From an uncultured Clostridia bacterium (GTDB lineage: Bacteria > Bacillota > Clostridia > Christensenellales > Borkfalkiaceae), in assembly GCA_944330115.1 (NCBI GenBank), contig CALVIN010000001.1, forward strand, positions 1 to 64,000: 64,000 nucleotides of DNA. Reading direction: 5' to 3'. A model generated the notes under the pieces. It did not search any database. It worked only from the letters and a program-made list of their open reading frames with translations, and had not been told where the DNA came from. This document shows positions 4,071 to 58,742 of this stretch, piece by piece; the first letter of the stretch is position 1; each line of letters opens with the position of its first letter. Position numbers and translations under genes: made by a program.

Positions 4071-4703
4071 TCACATAAACGTGATGACTATCACACCCTG
4101 GCTGATCAGCAGGATAGGTATTATCACGGCAAGAGGAGGGAGAGCTATGTCGATTATCGCCGTAACAAATCCGCCCGTGCTGCATTCCTTCCTTTTTTGA
4201 GTAATAGCGACGATTCCTGCCACCATTCCGAATACAGGGCAGAAAAATGCAACCAATAATATAAAAAAGCCCAATGATGTTGTCAGATAGGAAGTTTCGA
4301 TGCTAAGCAGAGCCAGCGGAACGCACGCTGCCTCGGCAATGATGCCCCAGTAGGGCAAAAAGCTGCGCAGATGCAGGCGTTTTTTCATTTTTTCGCGCGC
4401 AATTATAAACAGCAGGATAATTGCCGGCACAAGAAGTATCAGCGCAAGCATGAGCGTGTCTGTGCTTCTTGTAAATATGGTGGTAATACATAAAACTGCG
4501 GCGAGCGCCAGGCTGCCCGCGCCCCACAAGGGCCCGCTGCGCACGGCGGCGCCGCCGATAATCAGCGCCAGGCCGAATATGCAAATCAGCGCGGCCCATA
4601 TTGCCTTTGCCTTGGTGTTGCGCCTTTTTTCGCTTTGTTCCATGTCGTTTTGCGGCTTGCTGCCGCGTTCGCCGTATGCGCCGCTCTTGTCGTATTCATC
4701 CAT
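4071..4703 (-). CDS. Membrane protein, tandem paralogue A
   Basis: 210 residues and first gene of the operon. It has a polar N-terminus (about 30 residues), two hydrophobic segments around 35-75, another around 80-105, then the conserved C-terminal half shared with the 194-residue neighbour (FLPYWGIIAEA, CPVFG, GGFVTAIIDI). Function is unknown. It has an AAGGAGG ribosome site 8 nt upstream and a consensus promoter at 4736-4764. The paralogues differ mostly in their N-terminal halves, so they may assemble as a hetero-oligomer or serve related but distinct partners (inference). Confidence 0.78.
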   Translation of the reverse strand: MDEYDKSGAYGERGSKPQNDMEQSEKRRNTKAKAIWAALICIFGLALIIGGAAVRSGPLWGAGSLALAAVLCITTIFTRSTDTLMLALILLVPAIILLFIIAREKMKKRLHLRSFLPYWGIIAEAACVPLALLSIETSYLTTSLGFFILLVAFFCPVFGMVAGIVAITQKRKECSTGGFVTAIIDIALPPLAVIIPILLISQGVIVITFM

Positions 4704-4735
4704 AAGGGCCTCCTTCTTGCGTCATTTTTTATTAT

Positions 4736-4764
4736 ATTATAAACCATGCCTGCCTTAAAATCAA
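4736..4764 (-). promoter_or_regulatory. Promoter of the membrane-protein/PstS-like operon
   Basis: On the minus strand TTGATT (4764-4759) and TATAAT (4741-4736) are separated by 17 nt, about 33 nt upstream of the first gene's ATG. Confidence 0.75.
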
Positions 4765-4908
4765 TATCAAGGTTGTTGCAAAGTGCGTACACGCGTGTTA
4801 CATTGTGTTTTTTTGCCCTATTGCCGCGTTTTATTTGCCGTGCGGGCGCATATTGTTACATAGTCGCAATATTCTGCAAAATTTTCGCATACCGCCCAAA
4901 ACTTTGTG

Positions 4909-4936
4909 TTTACATATCGCAGAAATGTATTATAAT
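4909..4936 (+). promoter_or_regulatory. Promoter of mcsA-mcsB
   Basis: TTTACA and TATAAT are separated by 16 nt. A second TATAAT lies at 4947-4952. No GGTCAAA-type CtsR operator is visible around it. Confidence 0.6.
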
Positions 4937-5017
4937 TATATTGTATTATAATGCCGTCGGCATATAATAAATTCTGCGGCAAAATACAAAAGTGCAAAGG
5001 GAGGTATATCGCAGGCC

Positions 5018-10912: not shown

Positions 10913-10929
10913 CTTATCGTAAGTTAAAG

Positions 10930-11012
10930 CTCTGCCGTAACTGACGAATTTGCGGAAAAAACCGCAGGGGAACGGCGGGGCGTAAGGTTTTATGTCGTTC
11001 GTCTGGGCAGTT
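10930..11012 (+). ncRNA. ZMP/ZTP (pfl) riboswitch
   Basis: The leader matches the pfl motif, the ZTP/ZMP aptamer: GCCGTAACTGACGAA, a GC hairpin (TGCGG/CCGCA), GGGGAACGGC, and the hallmark GTCGTTCGTCTGGGCAG. Pairings that can be seen are P1 GCCG (10934-10937) with CGGC (10973-10976), P2 at 10951-10966, and the pseudoknot GACGAA (10943-10948) with TTCGTC (10998-11003). CTGCC at the 5' edge can also pair with GGCAG. The aptamer senses ZTP/ZMP, which builds up when 10-formyl-THF is short. A terminator follows at 11021. The gene behind it, pflA, is a classical target: Pfl makes formate, the source of formyl-THF. Confidence 0.92.
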
Positions 11013-11020
11013 GGCATACC

Positions 11021-11056: not shown

Positions 11057-11124
11057 GACCTGTTTTAAGGCGGGCGGCATTTGCTTTGCAACGGCATACG
11101 GTTGAACGTAAGGTCTATGTTTCT

Positions 11125-11944: not shown

Positions 11945-12247
11945 ATGGAAGAAAAAGATATTTTAAACGGCATATGTCTTGTGGAGATAGGCGGAGAGTC
12001 GTGCGCGGGCTGCCACGCGCTCATGCCCGAAGCCCGCGAGGCCGCCAAAAAGGCAGATATACCCTTTTATTACTTTGATGCGGCTGAGGCTGCCGCTTTA
12101 ATCGAAAGGTGGCAGGTGCAAACGGTGCCCTCGCTGTATCTTACCGACTGCGGCGTGCCCTTTGCAAGCTGCCGCGGCTATCAACCTCAGGAAATACTCG
12201 GATATTGGATAGAATACAAAATACAGGAGCATAAAAATGGCAAGTGA
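11945..12247 (+). CDS. Small thioredoxin-like protein
   Basis: 100 residues. A CAGC redox motif is at Cys20/Cys23, and the thioredoxin cis-proline signature TVPSLYL is near residue 62. The length matches a minimal thioredoxin fold, though the usual WCGPC is absent. Its 3' end overlaps the pflB start by 11 nt, so it is translationally coupled to pflB and sits between activase and enzyme. This position is unusual and hints at a role in protecting or reducing Pfl or its activase (inference). The ATG at 11945 has no clear ribosome site; an upstream in-frame start at 11870 would add 25 residues with no family similarity. Confidence 0.8.
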
Positions 12248-14282
12248 TAAGTTTGAAAACCGCCCCGAATGGGAGGGCTTCGTCCCCGGCAAATGGTGCG
12301 ACGACGAGGTGAACGTGCGCGACTTCATTCAGCGCAACTACACTCCCTACGAGGGCGACGACAGCTTCCTTGAGCCGGCCACGGAGGCCACCAAAAAGCT
12401 GTGGGACGATATCCTCGAACTCTCTAAAAAGGAGCGCGAGGCGGGCGGCGTGTTGAATGCCGATACCTCCATAGTTTCCACGCTCACCTCTCACGGCGCG
12501 GGCTATATCGATAAGGACCTCGAAAAGATAGTCGGCCTGCAGACCGACGAGCCCTTCAAGCGCTCTCTGCAGCCCTTCGGCGGCATAAAGATGGCAGAGC
12601 AGGCGCTAAATATGTATGGCTATGAAATAGATCCAAAGGTAAAGGAGATATTCACCAAATACCGCAAGACGCACAACGACGGCGTGTATGACGTATACAC
12701 CCCCGAAATGCGCCTCGCCCGCCGCGCACACATACTCACCGGCCTGCCCGATACCTACGGCCGCGGCAGGATAGTGGGCGACTACCGCCGCGTGGCTCTC
12801 TACGGCACCGACTACCTCGTCGCCTGCAAGGAGCGCGATAAGCTCAACATGAACGGCGATATGACGCCCGACAAGGTGCGCGACAGGGAGGAGCTCTCCG
12901 AGCAGATAAAGGCGCTCAAAAACCTCGCCAAGATGGCGGCAATGTACGGCAAGGATATCACACGCCCCGCCGCCAATGCGGAGGAGGCCGTGCAGTGGCT
13001 GTATTTCGGCTACCTCGGCGCGGTAAAGGAGCAGAACGGCGCCGCCATGTCGATAGGCCGCAACTCCACCTTCCTCGATATCTATATCGAGCGCGACTTA
13101 AAGCGCGGCACTCTCACCGAGCTCGAGGCGCAGGAGATAATCGACCAGTTCATAATGAAGCTGCGCATAGTAAAGTTCATGCGCATAAAGGAATATAACG
13201 AGCTGTTCTCGGGCGATCCCACGTGGGTCACCGAATCTATCGGCGGCATGGGGGTGGACGGCAGAACGCTCGTCACCAAAAACTCCTTCCGCGTGCTGCA
13301 CACGCTCGAAAATTTAGGCCCCGCGCCCGAACCCAACCTCACCGTGCTGTGGTCAACGCGCCTGCCCTCAAACTTTAAAAAGTACTGCGCAAAGGTCTCG
13401 ATAGATACTTCGGCAATTCAGTACGAGAGCGACGACCTCATGCGCCCCGAAATGGGCGACGACTATTGCATAGCCTGCTGCGTAAGCTGCATGCGTGTCG
13501 GCAAGGATATGCAGTTCTTCGGCGCGCGCGCCAACCTTGCAAAGTGCCTGCTCTACGCCCTCAACGGCGGCGCTGACGAGCTTTTAAAGGATAAGGCCAC
13601 CGGCAAGCCACTGCAGGTATCCCCCAGGTTCATGCCCGTGCTCGGTGACGACGCCCTCGACTTCGACGACGTAATGGCAAAGCTCGAGCAGATGATGGAC
13701 TGGCTGGCGGGGCTGTATGTAAACACGCTCAACGTCATCCACTACATGCACGATAAATACTGCTACGAGGCGCTTGAAATGGCGCTGCACGATACCGAAG
13801 TGAGAAGGTTCTTCGCCACGGGCGTCGCAGGCCTCTCGTGCGCGGCCGATTCGCTCTCCGCAATAAAGTATGCAAAGGTATATCCCATCCGCAACGAGTT
13901 CGGCATCATAACCGACTTCAAGATAGAGGGCGACTACCCCAAGTACGGCAACAACGACGACCGCGTCGATCAGCTCGCCGTATGGCTGGTAAAGACCTTT
14001 ATGACCAAGATAAAGAGTCACACTACCTACCGCGGCAGCGTTCCCACGATGAGCGTTTTAACGATAACGTCAAACGTGGTATACGGCAAAAATACGGGCA
14101 ACACGCCCGACGGCCGCAGGGCGGGCCAGCCCCTCGCGCCCGGCGCAAACCCCATGCACGGCCGCGATAAAAACGGCGCCCTCGCCTCGCTCGAATCGGT
14201 GGCAAAGCTGCCCTACGAATACTCGCGCGACGGCATATCAAACACCTTCTCGGTGACGCCCGCATCTCTCGGCAAAAACTGA
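12237..14282 (+). CDS. pflB: Pyruvate formate-lyase core, lacking the radical domain
   Basis: 681 residues. It converts pyruvate and CoA to acetyl-CoA and formate. The catalytic cysteine pair is Cys414-Cys415 in IACCVSCM, followed by [13 protein letters not shown]. Intact PflB proteins are about 740-760 residues and end with a glycyl-radical domain; this frame stops after [13 protein letters not shown], exactly at the linker before that domain. The missing part is a separate frame at 14636-14875. The stop lies at the edge of a 42-bp repeat (14282-14323), and a structured repeat fills the gap. An AGGAG ribosome site is present, and the gene overlaps the thioredoxin-like gene by 11 nt. The core is otherwise well conserved, so a two-subunit enzyme is more likely than a dead gene. 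Confidence 0.93.
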
Positions 14283-14323
14283 ATTGCCCCGCACATATCC
14301 CGCAACCATTGCGGTTTTGCGCA
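14282..14323. repeat. 42-bp direct repeat, copy a
   Basis: It begins AATTGCCCCGCACATAT and ends GCGGTTTTGCGCA. It matches 14997-15038 at all but about 4 positions. Together the copies bracket the separate glycyl-radical gene. A shorter relative starts near 11882. Confidence 0.85.
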
Positions 14324-14330
14324 GCGCCGC

Positions 14331-14390
14331 CCTCTCGTCTCCCCTGAATGGGAGGTGGCACGGCAATGCCGTGACAGAAGGGTTAAAGCT
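14331..14390. repeat. GC-rich paired-hairpin repeat
   Basis: CTCTCGTCTCCCCTGAATGG is followed by the hairpin GTGGCACGGCAATGCCGTGAC and then AGAAGGGTTAAAGCTC. It is a member of the dispersed family described in the findings. Confidence 0.7.
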
Positions 14391-14420
14391 CTACCGCAAA
14401 AAATTTGCGAAATTAAAAAT

Positions 14421-14602
14421 AAATAACGTCGCAAGGCGGGTTTCCCGCCGCCGCAGGCCACTATTTGCTGCGGTCAGCAGGCTCACTTGAGGTGAATTCG
14501 CGCGACTATACGCTTCGTGGGCCCTTAAAAGTCGCGCGAAGAGGAACTTAGTTCCTCAAACTCACGAAAAATGCCGTGCGCGGCCGCACGGGATTTTTGT
14601 GA
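14421..14602 (+). repeat. Structured ~180-bp element, copy 1
   Basis: Full copy of a dispersed element. It contains GGCGGG/CCCGCC (H1), GAATT plus the stem TTCGCGCGACT/AGTCGCGCGAA with conserved TATA and GGGCCCTTAA in the loop (H3, 14494-14544), GAGGAAC/GTTCCTC (H4), and the terminal hairpin opening TCACGAAAAATGCCGTGCG and closing in GTGA (H5). It ends 33 nt before the ATG of the glycyl-radical subunit and fills the split in pflB. Other copies are at 46283-46460 and 48678-48857. Confidence 0.85.
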
Positions 14603-14635
14603 ATAAAATTAAAACTTATAAAAGGAGTATATATC

Positions 14636-14875
14636 ATGGAAAAGTCCGACAGAGTAGATAACCTTGTAAATATGATCGACGCATATGTAGAGGACGGCGG
14701 CCACCACCTCAACGTAAACGTGTTCAACCGCGAAACGCTCCTCGATGCGCAGGCTCACCCCGAAAAGTACCCCCAGCTCACGGTAAGGGTATCGGGCTAT
14801 GCCGTCAACTTCAACAAGCTCACCAAGGAGCAGCAGGACGACGTCATCTCCAGGACCATACACGAGTCCCTCTGA
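14636..14875 (+). CDS. Separate glycyl-radical domain of pyruvate formate-lyase
   Basis: 79 residues. It carries the C-terminal signature of Pfl: [13 protein letters not shown], then [19 protein letters not shown], with the radical glycine at residue 54. It aligns to the last ~80 residues of complete PflB, beginning just after the linker where the 681-residue core stops. It has its own AAAAGGAG site 8 nt before the ATG, so it is a designed-looking separate gene. The closest known precedent is YfiD/GrcA of E. coli, a spare glycyl-radical domain that rescues cleaved Pfl; GrcA is longer (about 127 residues) and accompanies an intact Pfl, unlike here. PflA would need to act on this subunit bound to the core. 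Confidence 0.93.
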
Positions 14876-45480: not shown

Positions 45481-46071
45481 ATGATTGGATATTTAAAGGG
45501 TAAAATTTTATCGCTCTCCGAAGATACCGCGCTCATCGAAACGGGCGGGGTGGGCTATGAAGTGCTGTGCTCCGCCTCGGCGCTCGCCTCTCTCTCGGGC
45601 AAGAGCGAGGGGGAGGTATACACCTATCTTCAGGTGCGCGACGACGGCATAAGCCTGTTCGGCTTCTCCTCTCCCGCAGAAAAGAATATGTTTTTAAAGC
45701 TCGTGTCGGTCTCGGGCGTGGGGCCCAAGATGGGCATAGCCGTGCTCTCTGGCATGGATATAAATTCGCTCGCCGTGGCGATAGCCTCGTCAGACGTTAA
45801 AAAGCTCAGCACGGTAAAGGGGCTCGGCAAAAAGACGGCCGAGCGCATAATACTCGAACTGCGCGAAAAGGTGCAGGCTACTGAGGTGCCCGCGTCAAAG
45901 GGCGGCGCGCCCGCAATTCCCGCGGCAAGCGAAGGCGACGAGGACGCGGTAGTGGCCTTGATGTCGCTCGGCTTCACCCGTGCCGAAAGTACCCGCGCCA
46001 TAGACCGCGCCCACGCTGAGGGCGCCGCTACATTAGAGGACGTCATCCGCGCCGCATTAAAGAGCATGTAA
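45481..46071 (+). CDS. ruvA: RuvA, Holliday-junction branch-migration subunit
   Basis: 196 residues from the ATG at 45481 (MIGYLKGKILS). It has an N-terminal OB fold (1-62), two helix-hairpin-helix motifs (VSGVGPKMGIAVL; VKGLGKKTAERIILEL) and a C-terminal UBA-like domain (VVALMSLGFTRAESTRAI) after a short Pro/Ala linker. It binds four-way junctions and loads RuvB. A longer in-frame start at 45397 lies in repeat sequence and is rejected. Confidence 0.95.
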   Translation: MIGYLKGKILSLSEDTALIETGGVGYEVLCSASALASLSGKSEGEVYTYLQVRDDGISLFGFSSPAEKNMFLKLVSVSGVGPKMGIAVLSGMDINSLAVAIASSDVKKLSTVKGLGKKTAERIILELREKVQATEVPASKGGAPAIPAASEGDEDAVVALMSLGFTRAESTRAIDRAHAEGAATLEDVIRAALKSM

Positions 46072-46142: not shown

Positions 46143-46282
46143 TTTCCAAACAAATAATGGCGTAGGCTGAATTTATTTCAGCCGTTAAGCGCAACCGCAT
46201 TTGCATTGCTTTTTAGGTGGCAGGCAAATTTAGCGGATAAGCGCGAGCAGGGGAACCCCGCGGAAGCGCAATTTTCCAAAAC

Positions 46283-46460
46283 AAATAATGTCGCAAGGCG
46301 GGTTCCCCGCCGCCGCAGGACTCAATTTGCGCATACCTGCGCCTCAGCAGGGTGAATTTGCGCAATTATATAATTCGAGGGCGCTTAAGATTGCGCAAAG
46401 AGGGGCTGGCCCCTCAAGTCACGGAAATTATCGCTCTCGGCCAGAGCGATAATTTCGTGA
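46283..46460 (+). repeat. Structured ~180-bp element, copy 2
   Basis: Full copy ending 12 nt before the ruvB ATG. H1 is GGCGGG/CCCGCC. H3 (46354-46403) has GAATT, the stem TTGCGCAAT/ATTGCGCAA and the loop TATA..GAGGGCGCTTAA. H4 is GAGGGG/CCCCTC. H5 (46421-46460) opens TCACGGAAATTATCGCTCT and closes in CGTGA. H3 differs from copies 1 and 3 on both sides of the stem yet pairs. The closing GTGAGG can serve as the ruvB ribosome site. A 20-nt repeat (CCAAA..CAAATAATG) occurs at 46145 and 46275. Confidence 0.85.
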
Positions 46461-46472
46461 GGTATTTTTTTT

Positions 46473-47543
46473 ATGTTTTTCGACGATGAAGAATACGGCG
46501 GAGAGGACGACAGGCTGGTAAAGAGTACCAAGGGCGAATACGACGTTGAAGAAAACGTCCTGCGCCCCAAGAGCCTTTCGGACTACGTCGGCCAGGTAAA
46601 GGTCAAAGAAAATTTAAACGTATACATGGCTGCTGCCAAAAAGAGGGGGGAGGCGCTCGAACACGTCCTCCTTTACGGCGCGCCCGGCCTCGGCAAAACC
46701 ACGCTCGCCCACATCATCGCCAACGAGATGGGCGGTCAGTTAAAACTCACATCCGCCCCCGCGATAGAGCGCAGCGGCGACCTTGCCGCCATACTTACCA
46801 ACCTCAACGACGGCGACGTGCTCTTTATCGACGAGATACACCGTCTCAACCACAGCGTGGAGGAGATACTCTACTCCGCCATGGAGGACTACGCGCTCGA
46901 CATAATAGTTGGCAAGGGCCCCAGCGCGCGCAACATACGCTTTTCGTTAAAAAAGTTTACTTTGATCGGCGCCACCACAAAGGCGGGCATGATAGCAACT
47001 CCCTTGCGAAACCGCTTCGGCATAATCTGCCGTCTTGAGATGTATACCCCCGCCGAGCTCAAGGAGATAGTTTTAAAGAGCGCGGCAAAACTCGGCATAG
47101 AGATAGACGACTCCGCCGCGGCCGAAATTTCCAAGCGTTCGCGCGGCACGCCCCGAATTGCCAACAGGCTGTTAAAGCGCGTGCGCGACTTCTCTCAGAT
47201 ACGCGGCGAGGGCAGCGTCACAATTGAGGACGCCCGCTACGCCCTCGGCAGAATGGAGATAGACGACCTCGGCCTCGACGAGACCGACCGCGCCATTCTT
47301 CGCGCCATGATAGAAAAGTTCGACGGCAAGCCCGTGGGGCTTGAGACGCTCGCCGCCACGGTAAACGAGGACGCAAACACCATAGAGGACGTGTACGAGC
47401 CCTACCTTCTGCAGATGGGCTTCATAGCGCGCACCCCGCGCGGCAGGGTGATACTGCGCGGCGGATACGAACACCTGGGATATAAAATCACCGAGCGGCA
47501 GGCCTCGCAGCTCTCGGTATTCGACAAGGACGACAATGACTGA
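46473..47543 (+). CDS. ruvB: RuvB, Holliday-junction branch-migration motor
   Basis: 356 residues. It is an AAA+ ATPase with Walker [12 protein letters not shown] (near residue 70), Walker [11 protein letters not shown], the sensor stretch [18 protein letters not shown], and a C-terminal winged helix ([20 protein letters not shown]). It drives branch migration with RuvA. Its only ribosome site candidate, GTGAGG, is part of the preceding repeat's last hairpin. It overlaps queA by 8 nt. Confidence 0.97.
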
Positions 47544-48672
47544 AAATAACGCAACCGAAAATTCCGCCCGCGAGGGCGAAGATACCGCGGCCGAAGCTTC
47601 AGACCGCGGCGAAAAGATACTCAACGTAGAGGCGCACGGCGCGCCCACGACGCTCAAAAAGAGCGACTTTTATTACGACCTCCCCGAGGAGCTCATCGCG
47701 CAGACCCCCGCCGAGCCGCGCGATTCCTCCCGCCTCTTGGTATATGACAGGGCGACCGACAGGGTGGAGCACCGCATCTTCCGCGACATAAAGGAGTACC
47801 TCCGCCCGGGCGACGTGCTCGTGGTAAACAACACCAAGGTGCTGCCCGCGCGCATATTCGCGCACACCGAACACGGCGGCAGGGTAGAGGTGCTGCTGTT
47901 AAAGCGCATATCCGCCTTAAAGTGGGAGGTGCTCGTAAAGCCGGGCAAAAAGTGCAGGCCGGGCACTCATCTTACAGTGGACGATAAGCTCTCGCTCACG
48001 GTGGAATCGGTCACCGAAAGCGGCGAAAGGATAGTGAACTTCACCTGCGACGGCGTGTTCGAAGAGGCGCTCGCGCGCGTAGGTTCCATGCCCCTGCCGC
48101 CCTACATTCACGAAAAGTTAAAGGATAAAAACCGCTATCAGACGGTGTACGCCAAAACCGACGGCTCCGCGGCCGCACCCACGGCGGGACTGCATTTCAC
48201 GCCCGCCCTGTTGGATGAGATACGCGCCATGGGCGTGGAGATAGCCGAAGTGCTTCTCCATGTAGGCCTGGGCACCTTCCGCCCCGTAAAGGAGGACGCC
48301 ATCACCGACCACAAGATGCACAGCGAGTATTACGAGGTCGACGGGCGCGCGGCCGAAATAATAAGCCGCGCCAAGCGCGAGGGCAGGCGCGTGATAGCCG
48401 TGGGCACAACTTCGGTGCGCACGTTAGAGAGCGCCGCCGCCCCCGACGGCACGATAGAGCACTGCCGCGGCAACACCTCGATATTCATCTACCCGCCCTA
48501 TAAGTTCAAGTGCGTCGACGCGCTCATAACCAACTTCCACCTGCCCGAAAGCACCCTCATAATGCTCGTAGCCGCCATGGTCGGCAGGGAGAAGATACTT
48601 CAGCTGTATAAGACGGCGGTGGGGGAGAGGTATCGGTTCTTTTCCTTCGGCGACGCTATGATGATAGTGTAA
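47536..48672 (+). CDS. queA: QueA, tRNA epoxyqueuosine-forming enzyme
   Basis: 378 residues. S-adenosylmethionine:tRNA ribosyltransferase-isomerase moves the ribosyl group of SAM to preQ1 in tRNA, making epoxyqueuosine. Family motifs: [44 protein letters not shown], and [14 protein letters not shown]. It carries an unusual N-terminal extension of ~40 acidic residues ([20 protein letters not shown]) before SDFYY with no internal start, so the extension is probably real. It overlaps ruvB by 8 nt; tgt is the next gene. Other queuosine genes are not in the window. Confidence 0.96.
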
Positions 48673-48677
48673 AGGGC

Positions 48678-48857
48678 TCACGAAAATCTCGCGCAGGCCG
48701 TGCGCGATATTTTCCGTGAATTTGAGGGGCGCTGCCCCTCTTCGCGCGACCTTAAGGGCCCACGGAGCGTATAGTCGCGCGAATTCACCCTGCTCAGGCG
48801 CAGGTATGCGCAAATTGGGGCCTGCTGCGGCGGGAAACCCGCCTTGCGACATTATTT
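48678..48857 (-). repeat. Structured ~180-bp element, copy 3 (antisense)
   Basis: Full copy on the minus strand, beginning 6 nt after the queA stop. Read on the minus strand it has GGCGGG/CCCGCC, H3 (48737-48785) with GAATT, stem TTCGCGCGAC/GTCGCGCGAA and loop TATA..GGGCCCTTAA, H4 GAGGGGC/GCCCCTC, and H5 TCACGGAAAATATCGCGC...CGTGA. It is closest to copy 1. Its inverted orientation argues for mobility and against a simple mRNA leader at every site. Confidence 0.85.
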
Positions 48858-48879
48858 CTTTTAGAAATATTCACCTTAT

Positions 48880-49066: not shown

Positions 49067-50200
<1,134 letters not shown>

Positions 50201-58475: not shown

Positions 58476-58492
58476 TTCTAAAACCAAAGGGG

Positions 58493-58724
58493 GAATTGCC
58501 CCGATTATATGATATTAGAGCCCCTATAAATCGGGGCAAGGGGGTCGAACAATGCACTTCTGCAAACAGCACACACGCGCTGTTTGCGCATTGTGAGATG
58601 AGCGAGGGCAAACGCAAGCCCGAGCGGTGACCGAGCGCGGCGGTACTATACCGCTCGCCGCGCGAGAAGGGCTCCCCAAAAATCACGGAAATTATTCGGC
58701 GGTACCAGCCGAAGAATTTCGTGA
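58493..58724 (+). repeat. Structured element, copy 4 (rearranged)
   Basis: H3 (58493-58543) is clear: GAATT, stem TTGCCCCGAT/ATCGGGGCAA and loop TATA..GAGCCCCTATAA. H4 is opened by ~130 nt holding two extra hairpins (58549-58594 with GCAAACAGC/GCTGTTTGC; CGCGGCG/CGCCGCG). H5 (58683-58724) opens TCACGGAAATTATTCGGC and closes in CGTGA, ending 18 nt before relA. The 5' part present in copies 1-3 is missing. Confidence 0.75.
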
Positions 58725-58742
58725 GTCAGCTATTTTTATTTT

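Follow-up and report, generated by a model that had tools for sequence, protein, structure and literature searches.

The stretch of DNA analysed here, termed the window, comprises 64,000 nucleotides of a Candidatus Coproplasma genome and contains a repeated, strongly paired element, which raises the question of whether its hairpins are those of a structured RNA or act as DNA. The original prediction had described three full copies at 14421-14602 (+), 46283-46460 (+) and 48678-48857 (-) and a rearranged one at 58493-58724 (+). Direct reading of the sequence recovered all four, the last as a broken copy, along with the stems of the third hairpin (H3) and their exact partners. A search of the whole genome with a covariance model at E <= 0.01 yielded, within the window, solely the matches 14415-14604, 46277-46462, 48676-48863 and 58488-58539 with 58546-58726. 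Each full copy is terminated by GTGA (14599-14602, 46457-46460 and 48681-48678, respectively), and this end is located 12 bases from the start codon of ruvB in copy 2 and 5 bases from the stop codon of queA in copy 3, which is antisense to both queA and tgt. Copy 4 is devoid of the hairpins P1 and P2 and consists of the leader followed by P3 (58488-58539), a P4 hairpin whose loop is interrupted by a different repeat of roughly 130 bases, and P5, ending at 58724 (Table 1).

Table 1. Copies of the element and an associated repeat in the 64-kb window. Module limits were set by eye; bit scores refer to the covariance model.
Feature	Position	Strand	Score (bits)	Description
Copy 1	14415..14602	+	174.6	Full copy; pflB (12237-14282) on one side, split-off glycyl radical gene (start 14636) on the other
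Copy 1, leader	14415-14427	+		
Copy 1, P1	about 14428-14457	+		
Copy 1, P2	14467-14478	+		
Copy 1, P3	14497-14540	+		
Copy 1, P4	14541-14557	+		
Copy 1, P5	14562-14602	+		
Copy 2	46277..46460	+	197.5	Full copy; ruvA (ending at 46071) on the left, ruvB (starting at 46473) on the right
Copy 3	48678..48863	-	203.2	Full copy; queA (ending at 48672) on the left, tgt (starting at 49082) on the right
Copy 4	58488..58724	+	38.2 and 45.6	Broken; ahead of a relA/spoT-type gene (58743)
Second structured repeat	58544..58671 (limits approximate)	+		Within the loop of P4 in copy 4; unlike the element

The element comprises about 190 bases and is composed of an A/T-rich leader, five hairpins (P1 to P5) and the GTGA end. 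The conserved, TTTAAAATAATAAYG-like leader is an addition to the earlier description. The P1 stem reads GGCGGG/CCCGCC in the window copies, with a short outer stem that was read by eye and lies outside the model, P3 encloses a conserved loop of 23 bases, and P5 is mostly TCACG...CGTGA, with covarying variants such as TAACG...CGTTA elsewhere. The covariance model R2, with 189 positions and 42 pairs, was built from 42 copies. In a MAFFT alignment of 42 hand-chosen copies that was not fitted to the structure (A2), 95.3% of 1749 cells were paired and changes on both sides occurred in 40 of the 42 pairs; sliding the structure along the alignment reduced pairing to 41-47%, and none of 500 shuffles was as high as the real value. 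An alignment fitted to the structure (A4), comprising 126 matches from 100 of the 261 loci, gave 96.6% of 5040 cells paired and both-side changes in all 42 pairs, compared with 37-53% for slid structures. P3 was the cleanest hairpin, with 99.5% of its cells paired in A2. Moreover, 13 of the 14 invariant columns of A2 are located outside the modelled stems, and the conserved unpaired bases include ATTTG ahead of P2, CT after P2, A before P3 and GC in the P3 loop. The predicted combination of conserved loop bases and covarying stems was thus borne out, and the covariation is strong.

Parts of the element are lost and gained: P1 and P2 are absent from copy 4, and P3 and P4 from copies of a sister genus. 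In a subfamily represented by L021 (1502-1736), L024 and L027, P2 and P3 are separated by two extra hairpins of about 50 bases. The impression from blastn searches that single modules occur alone was rejected, and the modularity rests on fewer cases, because the covariance model showed most of these seemingly solitary modules to be parts of diverged full copies.

The expectation of further copies beyond the window was confirmed by covariance-model searches of the genome and the genus, so that the four copies are real but 'three copies and one variant' understates a family of many members. The genome of 1.77 Mb contains 91 matches at E <= 0.01 (best 9e-65), including 58 strong ones of at least 110 bits by hand count, and a blastn search with copy 3 found 50 places in it, several short ones being parts of diverged full copies. 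One contig of 265 kb carries 26 of the 58 strong copies, compared with 8.7 expected (p 6e-8). This contig, C3 of the window's genome (G000), represents 15% of the genome, and its base skew was too weak to place an origin or terminus.

Within the genus, the element was detected in 80 of 93 genomes at E <= 1e-4, with at most 28 candidates scored per genome and high counts therefore being lower bounds; the remaining 13 genomes gave no match at this threshold. Among 200 genomes of the order, 11 contained matches, all belonging to one family: six in the genus and five in a sister genus, the latter with divergent or shortened forms, the best of which consists of the leader, P1, P2 and P5 only. In this search, no match was obtained in one further genome of the sister genus or in a genome from a third genus of the same family. 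A 22-base core pattern occurred in at least 111 stretches of named genomes, and the matches listed all came from assemblies titled Clostridia, Clostridiales or Candidatus Coproplasma, with five species represented under the last name. At loci from four of these species, the flanks are 100% identical to those in genomes of the genus, which identifies it as Candidatus Coproplasma. Outside the family, blastn gave a match in G058 (E 2e-4). Viral contigs searched with one exact 22-base pattern, and phages and plasmids searched by distant blastn, gave no match.

For 48 of the 90 copies compared, the closest other copy belonged to the same genome, against a mean of 4.9 and a maximum of 15 with shuffled labels; this tally takes 26 of the 48 from the window's genome, leaves out 22 copies of unmapped loci and may include some species under two names. 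Head-to-tail pairs were present at L039, L052, L130, L178 and L182.

The position of the element relative to genes was deduced from 152 non-redundant full copies, selected from 178 full-length ones among 304 hits, with genes called as open frames of at least 130 codons, so that single cases may be wrong. In 91 of the 152 copies, no more than 30 bases separate the 3' end from a called coding sequence, and the same holds for the 5' end in 19 (p 3e-18). In 54 copies, a start codon follows at a median distance of 15 bases; in 71 copies, in which the element is antisense, a convergent stop codon is a median of 6 bases away. Distances were measured from the model end, which extends one or two bases beyond GTGA. 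Neither a start nor a convergent stop was found within 250 bases for 27 copies. The P5 end is thus usually placed against coding sequence. The tight 3' side would be explained by survival, if copies persist chiefly where they fit into the short space that separates a stop codon from the ribosome-binding site of the following gene, since empty ruvA-ruvB gaps often measure only 10-25 bases. Other repeats on the leader side would explain the loose 5' side: as later repeats accumulate there, the 3' end would stay by the gene and the 5' end would drift off. A true insertion preference for gene edges is also conceivable.

Proteins recurring next to the element (loci L001-L059) were also considered and rejected: the large clusters consist of open frames that overlap the element, and the other proteins common to at least three loci are encoded in the ruv region, representing one locus in several species. 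One related open-frame cluster covers 25 of the loci L001-L030, and the 12 frames shown overlap the element. The element could thus extend adjacent proteins by a tail or be wrongly annotated as a gene.

Occupation of the same gene gap was compared between species for ruvA-ruvB, for which 41 genomes were searched and 30 gaps were read by eye. Four of the 30 hold a copy (three sense, one antisense) and one holds a seeming remnant. The window's genome and G029 carry different sense copies, G019 carries an antisense copy, and in G015 a sense copy interrupted between P1 and P2 is preceded by a P4-P5 remnant; in G063 (L073), a leader-and-P1 remnant was apparent by eye. No copy was visible by eye in the other gaps among the 30. 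Further gene gaps were empty in relatives or held a copy in the opposite orientation. The element is accordingly dispersed, amplified within lineages and gained or lost at the same gene gap between related species. The proposed inspection of insertion sites in relatives for target duplications revealed none that was consistent: no offset or length stood out in 143 copies, and comparisons of empty and filled sites gave no clean junction, because the compared species are too diverged.

Three sites are shared by two species each, with the element 97%, 98% and 98% identical, although these pairs are not a fair sample because they were found through their likeness. At the first site, the flanking 100-base windows are 55 to 97% identical; at the second, they reach 83 to 97%, and nearby non-coding bases are also highly similar; at the third, the outer windows are 73-88% and the left intergenic bases 98-100% identical. 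The identity of 97-98%, which exceeds that of most neighbouring windows, may reflect selection on those copies themselves. Other co-located pairs are unlike or opposite in orientation.

Covariation is usually read as strong evidence for functional RNA. If RNA folding is selected, G.U pairs should be tolerated and A.C pairs should not. The stems of A4 contain 48 G.T, 52 A.C and 121 other mismatches among 5040 cells, so that wobble and A.C are equally frequent (1.0% of cells each, p 0.76), whereas a small control of 21 distinct tRNAs from the window and the loci contains 27 G.T in 433 cells (6.2%) and no A.C (Fisher p 4e-12 for the difference in G.T). A hand count of the unfitted A2 gave about 20 G.U and 28 A.C. 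Fitting is an unlikely source of the missing wobble excess, because RNA models in general favour G.U over A.C. Additionally, Watson-Crick pairing was compared by orientation in the 104 of 152 copies that were matched to A4, and amounted to 96.5% in 29 sense copies (before a start codon), 96.2% in 39 antisense copies (past a stop codon) and 95.5% in 36 others. We conclude that complementarity is kept at the DNA level, either by selection on hairpins or by template switching within them.

Template switching during replication, in which one arm of a hairpin is rewritten from the other, would produce covariation automatically and without selection. The equality of G.T and A.C fits this explanation, as does the excess of paired over one-sided changes between copies, which amounted to 103585 versus 14084 below 80% identity, 793 versus 128 at 80-90% and 7 versus 4 at 90-94%, in comparisons that are not independent of one another. 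Hairpin selection and template switching are inseparable in these data, because only six pairs of copies lie on the side above 90% identity. However, the conserved loops and the spread of the element are left without explanation. Of the 11 differences in the three shared copies, nine are unpaired and two are one-sided inside stems (by eye), and arm correction is therefore incomplete. As the whole explanation, template switching is possible, but we would not expect it.

A structured RNA, either a small RNA or a leader or trailer transcribed with the neighbouring genes and kept by selection on RNA folding, is unlikely. It would account for the conserved unpaired bases, the strong covariation, the 54 copies directly before a start codon and the near identity of the three shared copies across species. 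The claim of a functional structured nucleic acid thus stands with respect to covariation and loops, but its reading as structured RNA does not: wobble pairs show no excess over A.C, unlike in tRNAs, the antisense copies, of which 71 adjoin a convergent stop codon, are as well paired as the sense copies, and the same gap can be empty, occupied or occupied in reverse in relatives, with many sites not common to species. The earlier statement that the element matches no RNA family also held, as no Rfam family scored over its gathering threshold on the element and permissive thresholds revealed nothing convincing. A mobile DNA element fits better than a fixed RNA gene, because both occupancy and orientation of the gaps vary among related species.

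The element, about 190 bases long and found only in the family of Candidatus Coproplasma, is therefore probably a non-autonomous mobile repeat whose hairpins are read as DNA. These hairpins would be recognised, together with the conserved loop bases, in a probably single-stranded or extruded form by a recombinase supplied in trans, and a recombinase step that needs strict Watson-Crick pairing may underlie the balance of G.T and A.C. A more far-reaching version of this mobile repeat, which we put forward with considerable doubt, would make it a new class of small mobile element: a folded single strand that is moved by a recombinase other than those of Y1, Y2, IS110 or reverse-transcriptase systems, with covarying hairpins and loops as its sole code and with insertion of the 3' hairpin at gene edges.

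Candidate movers were searched with profiles for Y1, Y2, reverse transcriptase, IS110 and TnpB (cut-off E 1e-3 in the window's own genome). The Y1 transposase (PF01797) was detected in 28 of 93 genomes of the genus, with none in the window's genome, and was unrelated to copy number by hand tally (10 of 27 genomes with at least 20 matches versus 18 of 66 others, p 0.46). The Y2 transposase (PF04986) of IS91/Helitron-like elements gave one weak match in 41 genomes and none in the window's genome, in a search that also gave none in 14 control genomes and thus lacked a positive control. The window's genome likewise yielded no TnpB zinc ribbon (PF07282; 4 of 93 genomes over the cut-off), no IS110 DEDD transposase (PF01548; 1 of 93) and no reverse transcriptase (PF00078) of the group II intron or retron type (15 of 41). 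Rfam includes HEARO, and no match to this type of RNA of the OMEGA systems (IscB/TnpB) was obtained on the element.

A repeat serving the host in chromosome architecture or transcription punctuation would suit the gene-edge placement and the clustering of 26 of the 58 strong copies on one 265-kb contig, but this is improbable in view of the 13 genus genomes without a match, the turnover at the compared sites and the lack of an obvious terminator U-run after the P5 stem (by eye). That the element is an ordinary MITE derived from a DDE-transposase insertion sequence is very improbable. Its small size, lack of coding sequence, dispersal and variable occupancy of sites would agree with this reading, but its leader TTTAAAATAAT... 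and 3' end ...GTGA(A/G) do not form terminal inverted repeats by eye, no consistent target duplication stood out in the copies compared, and the 126 matches are not A/T-rich (41-59% G+C; 40-59% across the matches listed). The identity to an IS200/IS605-type or MITE family that had been named as a refutation was not found.

Among known repeats, bcr1 of Bacillus is mobile and REP palindromes are linked to RAYT transposases. The comparison with such repeats was made at the level of description. The BOX element of Streptococcus pneumoniae is described as modular, intergenic, multi-copy and strongly folded; its transcripts extend operons at the 5' and 3' ends, it is regarded as a parasite that moves slowly at present, and it has tandem boxB units and terminal inverted repeats whose use by ISSpn2 has been proposed (PMC3049150). 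The element resembles BOX in being modular, intergenic, multi-copy and folded, but differs in its five distinct hairpins and in lacking inverted ends and a detected partner insertion sequence. The bcr1 repeat, of 167 bp (147 bp in earlier work; PMC2267715), is similar in size, repeated and foldable. REP palindromes are extragenic hairpins of 20-40 bp in many copies (PMC3733652), unlike the element with its roughly 190 bp, five hairpins and no Y1 transposase detected in the window's genome. Prokaryotic MITEs are small, non-coding and dispersed (PMC10969869), as is the element, which differs from them in its ends and base composition and in which no target duplication was detected. No description of the element was found in the literature searched, and the titles and abstract beginnings of the Coproplasma papers found there mention no repeats.

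The 126 aligned copies and the 93 searched genomes of one genus provide a large natural set in which near-perfect covariation occurs without wobble preference, and the count of G.T versus A.C represents a simple test that separates RNA folding from DNA hairpins. Since a single genome can have dozens of its gene gaps occupied by the element, operon spacing, gene annotation and the discovery of RNAs are all affected in this little-studied group of gut bacteria.

The second structured repeat, which interrupts P4 in copy 4, has 12 matches in the window and contig C3 (329 kb, the one in copy 4 included), five of them in or beside the element. A repeat of this type, of about 120-140 bases, also occupies the P4 loop of L213 (within 4631-4939), and an insert of similar size is located between P1 and P2 in L063; the second repeat may have a preference for hairpin loops. 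Another repeat, ACCTCCCCTCAAAGGGGAGGT, has 16 matches at 13 places in the window, some on both strands, with none expected by chance (17927, 22159, 22191, 22727, 32767, 32883, 35803, 45296, 48885, 58244, 58278, 58312 and 58380), and is frequently situated on the element's leader side. The pyruvate formate-lyase is split (window 12237-14872) into a body of 681 aa, corresponding to TIGR01255 positions 1-662, and a separate protein of 79 aa (best NCBIfam GrcA3), corresponding to positions 663-744, with copy 1 between both parts. A ZMP/ZTP riboswitch is located at 10927-11015 (+), directly ahead of the open frame at 11086.
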